From contig CAJXVM010000007.1 of NCBI GenBank assembly GCA_913061095.1, positions 1 through 64,000 on the forward strand: 64,000 bases of DNA, read 5' to 3'. Position numbers and translations under genes: made by a program. Within the stretch, counting starts at the first letter, position 1; each line of letters begins with the position of its first letter. Under the pieces are notes generated by a model. That model was not told the origin of the DNA. It saw only the letters and a list, made by a program, of their open reading frames with translations, and ran no database searches. This document shows positions 1 to 41,898 of this stretch, one piece after another. The DNA is from an uncultured Ignavibacteria bacterium (GTDB lineage: Bacteria; Bacteroidota; Ignavibacteria; SZUA-365).

Positions 1-97
1 CGGCGCTGTAGCTTCGGCGGGCAGGCGGTGTATTGATTTCCTGGCACCCCCAGGCTTACGCCTGGGGCTACCGCATCGTGCTCGTGCTCCTGCTCGC
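1..97 (-). repeat. REP-like hairpin plus hexamer tract after ftsZ
   Basis: On the minus strand this lies directly after the ftsZ stop codon. A short (GAGCAG/GAGCAC) tract at about 76-97 leads into GTAG, then a perfect 8-bp stem (48-55 paired with 60-67) closed by a GTAA loop. GTAG followed by a palindrome is the known signature of REP sequences that are substrates of RAYT (TnpA_REP) transposases. Related hairpins lie at 19460-19479, 35677-35696 and 41807-41826. The hairpin might also stabilise or end the ftsZ transcript, but no T-run follows it. Confidence 0.6.
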
Positions 98-19414: not shown

Positions 19415-19541
19415 ATGTGGGCTGGGGGCTCCTGAGAACGTCTTTTCATCGCGCGACAACCACACGCTCACGCGTGCGGATAACGCAGCCGACCCGCGGT
19501 CGTATCGTTATAACGGACCTGCGGCGGCGAATAGCCAACGG
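19415..19541 (-). repeat. Convergent gap with REP-like hairpin
   Basis: Between two convergent genes. On the minus strand an 8-bp stem (19460-19467 paired with 19472-19479, one wobble pair) encloses a GTGA tetraloop, preceded by TTAT instead of GTAG. About 25 bp including the hairpin are nearly identical to the element at 35677-35696. No T-run, so it is not a clear terminator. Confidence 0.55.
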
Positions 19542-35525: not shown

Positions 35526-35730
35526 TATTAAAATAGATTTCCGGCTTCCGGGGCGACTCTGAAATCGAAATATGTGCACCCTGGAGGATGCTGGCTGCTG
35601 GAAAAGCGGGCGGCCCGCCTTCGTCCGACTGCAGCGGACTTCGGCAGGCACGGGGGTGTGGAGACTGGCACGCGAACCACACGCTCACGCATGTGGATAT
35701 TGCATCCTGCTCGTGCTCCTGCGCCTGCGC
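35526..35730 (-). repeat. Repeat mosaic after thiN
   Basis: No gene seen. From the thiN stop codon on the minus strand: GCGCAGG-type hexamers (35700-35730) with GCAGGAGCACGAGCA shared with the DNA after ftsZ; a REP-like hairpin with GTGA tetraloop (35677-35684 with 35689-35696, one mismatch); and a palindromic CCGAAGTCCGC...CGAAGGCGG block (35614-35645) that resembles 41601-41634. Confidence 0.55.
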
Positions 35731-38892: not shown

Positions 38893-38996
38893 GATACAGC
38901 TCCTTTCAATTGAGTGATTCTGGAACTCGACCCTTGCGCGGCACGAAGAGAGGAAAGAAAAAGCCGTCGACCGGGGAAATCGGCAACGGCGCTGGA

Positions 38997-39083
38997 ACTT
39001 CCTTCCCTACGCCGGCATTATCCGGGTCAGGTTCGACGGGTATGTTCTCAGCTGCCGATTTCTCCCGGCAGCACCCCGAGTAC
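38997..39083 (-). ncRNA. TPP riboswitch (THI element)
   Basis: The minus strand contains the conserved blocks CGGGGTGC, then CAGCTGAGA, ACCC, GAACCTGAcccGGATAATGCC and GCGTAGGGAAG in the right order and spacing, with a short variable P3a-like hairpin (CTGCCGGGAG...CGGCAG) in between. It lies in the leader of the TonB-dependent receptor. High thiamine pyrophosphate should switch off the operon; whether by termination or by masking translation is not clear from sequence. Confidence 0.97.
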
Positions 39084-39087
39084 ATGA

Positions 39088-39116
39088 AACTTACGATATC
39101 CGCCGGCGGAAGTCAA
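39088..39116 (-). promoter_or_regulatory. Promoter of the thiamine unit (predicted)
   Basis: Minus-strand TTGACT (39111-39116), 17-nt spacer, TAAGTT (39088-39093). The transcript would start almost exactly at the first riboswitch bases. Confidence 0.7.
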
Positions 39117-41580: not shown

Positions 41581-41898
41581 ACGTGGCTTTGAGCAATGGG
41601 CCGCCGAAGGTCCGCCGCAGCGGATCGAAGGCGGATTGGGCGTTGGGCGTTGGGCGTTGGGCGTTGGTCGTTGGGCGTTGGTCGTTGGGCGTTGGGCGTT
41701 GGGCGTTGGCCGTTGGGTGTTGGCCGTTGGGCGTTGGCTGTTGGCCGTGGGCCATGGACCGTTAGCTGACACAAAATAGAACTGAGTGAGACGGAGCCTC
41801 CGGCATCCCCACCCTCACGGGTGGGGCTACCCCCGCCGGCAACAGCATGCGGCACCCACACGCGTCTTGATGTGAATGCACATAGCCCTCAGCCCCAC
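41581..41898. repeat. Repeat mosaic: CCGAAG block, 7-bp tandem repeat, REP hairpin
   Basis: No gene seen between the two facing terminators. Palindromic CCGAAGG-TCCGC block at 41601-41634; eighteen heptads of GTTGGGC type from 41642 to 41767 (first copies perfect, last ones decayed); and a REP-like element at 41807-41830 whose minus strand reads GTAG, an 8-bp perfect stem (41807-41814 with 41819-41826) and a GTGA tetraloop. Confidence 0.75.

Follow-up and report, generated by a model that had tools for sequence, protein, structure and literature searches.

Dispersed hairpins with GTNA loops form a REP system associated with Y1 transposases of subclass 1.2

The closest described counterparts of the hairpins reported here are the REP/RAYT systems, or REPtrons, of class 2 and the GTAG superfamily (Nunvar 2010, PMC2817692; Di Nocera et al. 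2013, PMC3733652). In those systems, short palindromes present in high copy number carry a 5' foot, occur in inverted pairs and arrays and have covarying stems, while the same repeat flanks a single-copy Y1 gene. The enzyme bears a Y---NP motif and the foot is GTAG. GTAG and CGTC repeats have already been reported from several phyla (PMC3733652), and systems outside the gammaproteobacteria, including Bacteroidetes, Cyanobacteria and Planctomycetes, are published (PMC3733652, PMC6006769), beyond the gammaproteobacteria in which an earlier note on this DNA had called such families best described. By SELEX and mutation, a class 2 TnpA_REP was found to need a TTNA loop (Corneloup et al. 2021, PMC8266576). 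In this system, the Marinomonas REPtron Mb, a class 2 (group 3) enzyme acts with a perfect 5-bp stem and a GTAG foot at a distance of two bases; in the loop, position 1 is an obligatory T and position 3 is free.

Two further groups lie close. The IS200/IS605 family (IS608, ISDra2) consists of HUH/Y1 enzymes with hairpin substrates. TnpA_Y1 subclass 1.2, a class 1 group found in Bacteroidetes, comprises low-copy proteins of ~150 aa with Y---Q--HH and DH[IV]H motifs and was described as lacking REPs (Quentin et al. 2018, PMC6006769). The automatic REP search of that study required a GT[AG]G foot, and some other subclasses were inspected manually. Our own literature search, with subscription journals largely outside it, returned no report of REPs for subclass 1.2. 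Here, we describe a genuine REP system that is associated with a Y1 protein of class 1, subclass 1.2, which probably mobilises the repeats.

The window, that is the whole stretch of 64,000 nucleotides that was analysed (positions 1-64000 of contig C7), belongs to a 4.6 Mb genome (G000, hereafter the source genome). All four minus-strand hairpins that the earlier note had reported are present. The hairpin CCCCAGGC-GTAA-GCCTGGGG (48-67), downstream of ftsZ, and CCCCACCC-GTGA-GGGTGGGG (41807-41826), downstream of a gene whose product carries a type IX secretion tail, have perfect 8-bp stems. One G.T pair interrupts the stem of CCGCACGC-GTGA-GCGTGTGG (19460-19479), which lies between convergent genes for a Na/Ca exchanger and a DUF1611 protein, and one T.G pair that of CCACATGC-GTGA-GCGTGTGG (35677-35696), downstream of thiamin pyrophosphokinase. 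On the 5' side of each hairpin on the minus strand is a short foot. As the note had read them, the ftsZ copy and the copy at 41807 are preceded by GTAG (GGTAG at 68-72 and at 41827-41831) and the other two by TTAT and ATAT (GTTAT at 19480-19484, AATAT at 35697-35701). Three of the copies had been placed downstream of minus-strand genes; in fact this applies to all four, but no orientation rule holds across the genome (see below).

The window contains two perfect 8-bp hairpins with a GNRA loop, whereas 15 Markov-shuffled windows average 0.27. When folded as single-stranded DNA, each of the four reaches -7 to -10.5 kcal/mol, a much stronger fold than that of shuffled sequence. An Rfam search of the window returned a TPP riboswitch (RF00059, 68 bits) at 38987-39088 on the minus strand and nothing else. 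Next to one of the hairpins, an intergenic tandem repeat of a GTTGGGC-type 7-mer spans 41642-41760.

A covariance model (R1) was built from eight hairpins of the source genome, including the four of the window, whose own scores are thus circular. The genome-wide scan that the earlier note had suggested bore out a sizeable family with compensatory changes instead of a few copies: at least 150 members (150 of ~1240 candidates scored), on the basis of covariance searches together with 823 kb of source-genome stretches partly picked for matches. A 20-nt hairpin at this copy number corresponds to the short (20-40 bp), high-copy palindrome of REP elements. Four contigs of the assembly (C7, C15, C36 and C39) start within ~50 nt of a REP, which suggests that the assembly may break at these elements and that their number may be underestimated.

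The loop preference emerges without presupposing a loop. In 759 kb of source-genome stretches, again partly picked for matches, GTGA/TCAC accounts for 102 and GTAA/TTAC for 25 of 189 perfect 8-bp tetraloop hairpins. No comparable excess is seen in the same 759 kb for loops of 2, 3 or 5 nt, and 6-nt CTCACG/CTTACG loops are in most cases hairpins of this kind whose loop has been taken one pair too wide. Among 164 GTNA hairpins with stems of at least 7 bp in the 823 kb, GTGA occurs 117 times, GTAA 31 times, GTCA 16 times and GTTA not at all. The GNRA loop proposed earlier therefore captures the dominant GTAA and GTGA forms, but the rule that fits the family is GTNA, with GTCA included. The loop thus shares with that of the Marinomonas REPtron Mb a T at position 2, an A at position 4 and a free third base above a perfect stem, but differs in its first base, which is mostly G, and in the stem, which has 8 bp.

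To assess covariation, candidates were chosen solely by foot, loop and two 5' bases; the 3' arm was unconstrained. Full eight-pair stems were found in 122 of 162 candidates, compared with a mean of 29.5 (maximum 43) after the 3' arms had been re-dealt. Three of the eight pairs vary with both sides changing: pair 3 (A-T/C-G) and pairs 6 and 7 (G-C/C-G). The covarying stems inferred from four copies are thereby borne out.

The foot consists of TA followed by A, G or T, usually within GCG[GC]TAR; its consensus can also be written GCG[GC]TA[A/G/T] or GNTA[A/G/T]. Given this consensus, the TTAT and ATAT feet, in which the earlier note had seen a possible second subfamily, are variants within a single family. 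TAT feet are confined to stems carrying G at pair 7 (20/20 copies, 7/7 distinct), a linkage too weak to divide the family. The exact GTAG foot is seldom used (25/122 copies, ~20%) and the GT[AG]G foot of REP elements is not the rule, so that, strictly speaking, the family falls outside the GTAG superfamily of REPs.

Copies occur as singles, as inverted pairs and in arrays, with 55 clusters, an organisation characteristic of BIMEs and REPINs. In pairs arranged feet-in, the spacer measures 29-30 nt in 21 of 21 pairs less than 60 nt apart (~14 independent sites) and its sequence is variable; heads-in pairs have spacers of 12-25 nt. Tandem REP arrays are found in contigs C25 (30088-30436), C21 (30893-31349) and C31 (26741-27065), with periods of 36, 72 and 50 nt. 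As to the largely extragenic position typical of REP elements, a crude ORF caller places 84 of 151 copies inside ORFs, calls that are likely spurious in GC-rich repeats.

The source genome encodes three Y1_Tnp genes. Two of them, L001 (contig C16, 102169-102621) and L002, are 52% identical and present in one copy each. Both products combine the HUH motif DHIH with Y---Q--HH, and together with their low copy number and length of ~150 aa this places them in subclass 1.2. Their nearest solved relatives include the IS608 and ISDra2 transposases. They score above the NCBIfam IS200 cut-off but reach only 20 and 28 bits with the NCBIfam RAYT model NF047646 (cut-off 80), and are thus unlike class 2 TnpA_REP in both RAYT score and Y---NP motif. 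Within 1 kb, L001 is flanked by two family hairpins on one side and six on the other, plus GTCA variants; L002 sits between TTCCGGGC-GTGA and CCCCGAC-GTGA/GTCA hairpins. The transposase gene flanked by such hairpins that the earlier note had anticipated hence exists in L001, but it encodes a class 1, subclass 1.2 enzyme with Y---Q--HH and not a canonical RAYT. The stem of the ftsZ hairpin, CCCCAGGC, has no exact match among the flanking stems of L001 or L002. A tRNA-Val gene lies close to the L001 transposase gene (L001:1086-1163).

The third gene, L003 (contig C5, 171040-174291), is a canonical class 2 RAYT (NF047646, 99.6 bits). It has an inverted repeat of its own, GACGGATTGAANTCC, with 11 sites genome-wide and ~6 pairs, two of which surround the gene; pair members are ~80 bp apart. 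Each of the three genes is therefore accompanied by its own hairpin family, a pattern described for REP systems (PMC6006769). Read outward, the GACGGATTGAANTCC repeats terminate with CGTC; repeats of that class were reported in 2013 to have no transposase.

The association extends across the phylum, where subclass 1.2 is present in 167 of 395 sampled genomes. Y---Q--HH was found in all 64 extracted proteins as well as in the two of the source genome; since the motif was used in the extraction, its second H is the informative part. The 64 loci are flanked by 191 hairpins, against 52 after shuffling (3.7x), compared with 58 against 40 (1.45x) at ftsZ control loci. Under a strict test, recurrent flanking hairpins were detected at 32 of 70 subclass 1.2 loci and 5 of 30 ftsZ loci, and many subclass 1.2 loci have no hairpins. 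Tetraloops fitting [GT]TNA make up 47% near the genes, 16% farther out at the same loci and 12% at ftsZ loci. Triloops of the GNA type are frequent at subclass 1.2 loci as well, and GTTA and GCTA loops occur around related genes. Loop type roughly tracks the protein tree, with five T-type loci that need three changes. The description of subclass 1.2 as having no associated REP is thus at odds with L001 and L002, both flanked by hairpins, and with the enrichment of hairpins around the phylum loci.

Dispersal beyond the gene is seen for other stems too, at 14 sites in one genome (G152) and six in another (G055). Summed by hand, the 12-mer TCCCGTNAGGGA occurs 76 times against 22 for its reverse in 22 genomes with the gene, and 9 against 8 times in nine genomes without it. 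A shorter pattern, CCCGTNAGGG, had too high a background across the 395 genomes to tell carriers from non-carriers and was set aside for the 12-mer. A contig scan with RAYT1 gave a distant Streptomyces sequence as its sole match and none among viral contigs; the named plasmid relatives (Bernardetia, Persicobacter, Leptolyngbya) yielded little.

At the threshold used, an intact subclass 1.2 gene is missing from each of the four congeners, one of which has a fragment. The covariance model finds 0, 0, 0 and 8 family copies in them, compared with at least 150 in the source genome; because the model was trained on source-genome hairpins, these low counts are partly a matter of stem divergence. The eight matches fall in a congener with no detected gene and a fragmented assembly (G398). 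In three congeners, the hairpin at 35677-35696 was not seen where the corresponding two genes adjoin, but no clean empty site was found in these, because their intergenic regions are too diverged. In a genome of the same family as the source (G402), a related gene is flanked by CCCCACAC-GTGA hairpins with a different stem. One congener without subclass 1.2 genes carries a ~20-nt tandem array, GGAAAGCCCCTGTGACGGGA, in the corresponding intergenic region (L231; G395, contig C15, 5200-6700).

Could the hairpins act as RNA? Each of the four copies in the window is downstream of a minus-strand gene and has GTRA on its sense strand, and some stems contain G.T pairs, as might be expected if transcribed GNRA hairpins stabilised or terminated the mRNA of the gene before them. 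Between co-oriented genes, however, 14 copies are in sense and 18 in antisense, and 142 of 143 copies have no T-run on the GTNA strand. Together, the unbiased gene orientation and the missing T-run suggest that selection probably acts on single-stranded DNA and not on RNA. Moreover, the GNRA rule is broken by GTCA loops in this genome and by GTTA and GCTA loops at related genes, and a role in RNA would leave the conserved foot and the fixed foot-to-foot spacing unaccounted for. We thus regard a role as transcribed elements as quite improbable, and the stable C(GNRA)G RNA hairpin envisaged in the earlier note is not upheld. It is very unlikely that the hairpins are instead moved by L003, with the Y---Q--HH genes adjoining REP arrays by chance. 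RAYTs are the known mobilisers of REPs and L003 scores over the curated cut-off, but it is flanked by GACGGATTGAANTCC with no GTNA hairpin nearby, and hairpin enrichment tracks subclass 1.2 genes phylum-wide.

Just as unlikely is an ordinary IS200/IS605 element, of which the hairpins would be the left and right ends, together with MITE derivatives. Although L001 and L002 pass the IS200 cut-off and in several relatives a single hairpin immediately precedes the start codon, many near-identical gene copies with terminal hairpins are not what is found. Two 52%-identical genes in one copy each stand against at least 150 hairpins in arrays and inverted pairs, the signature is Y---Q--HH, and no TnpB was detected among the neighbouring ORFs tested by Pfam. 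In E. coli, REPs bind host proteins, and the regular spacing seen here would also suit binding sites for a nucleoid or supercoiling protein, spread by selection and not by transposition. We give this even less credence, since the family is near-absent in congeners without an intact gene, the arrays flank the transposase gene itself, and the copies cluster strongly, in contrast to sites that organise a chromosome.

We therefore consider it likely that the hairpins are REP elements, short non-autonomous single-stranded DNA elements that a subclass 1.2 Y1 (HUH) transposase, encoded elsewhere in the genome, spreads in trans. The proposed mover of the family is the L001 product; the related L002 gene has hairpin families of its own. 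A REP would fold when its DNA becomes single-stranded, for example on the lagging strand. The enzyme may then recognise three features, namely the stem in its paired form, a GTNA loop in which T2 and A4 are fixed but the third base is free, and the foot TAR; its tyrosine would cut beside the REP, which would be joined elsewhere. Feet-in pairs with a 29-30 nt spacer are a likely double substrate for an enzyme dimer. The roles given here to loop and spacer, as well as binding, cleavage and transposition, are inferred.

Taken together, the system resembles classical REP/RAYT in its presumed working and departs from it in two marks, the GTAG foot and the Y---NP enzyme. It is conceivable, though we would not quite put it at even chances, that REP mobilisation arose separately in the class 1 (IS200-like) branch and that the whole Y---Q--HH subclass consists of REP transposases with a code of their own ([GT]TNA or GNA loops, lineage-specific stems and, in this genome, TAR-type feet), converging on the loop rule of class 2 group 3. 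A widespread transposase subclass previously without a substrate gains a proposed one, and REP biology reaches past enzymes of the Y---NP type and past the GTAG foot on which searches have insisted. The stem, the [GT]TNA loop, the TAR foot and the 29-30 nt spacing provide a compact candidate code for in vitro oligonucleotide work.
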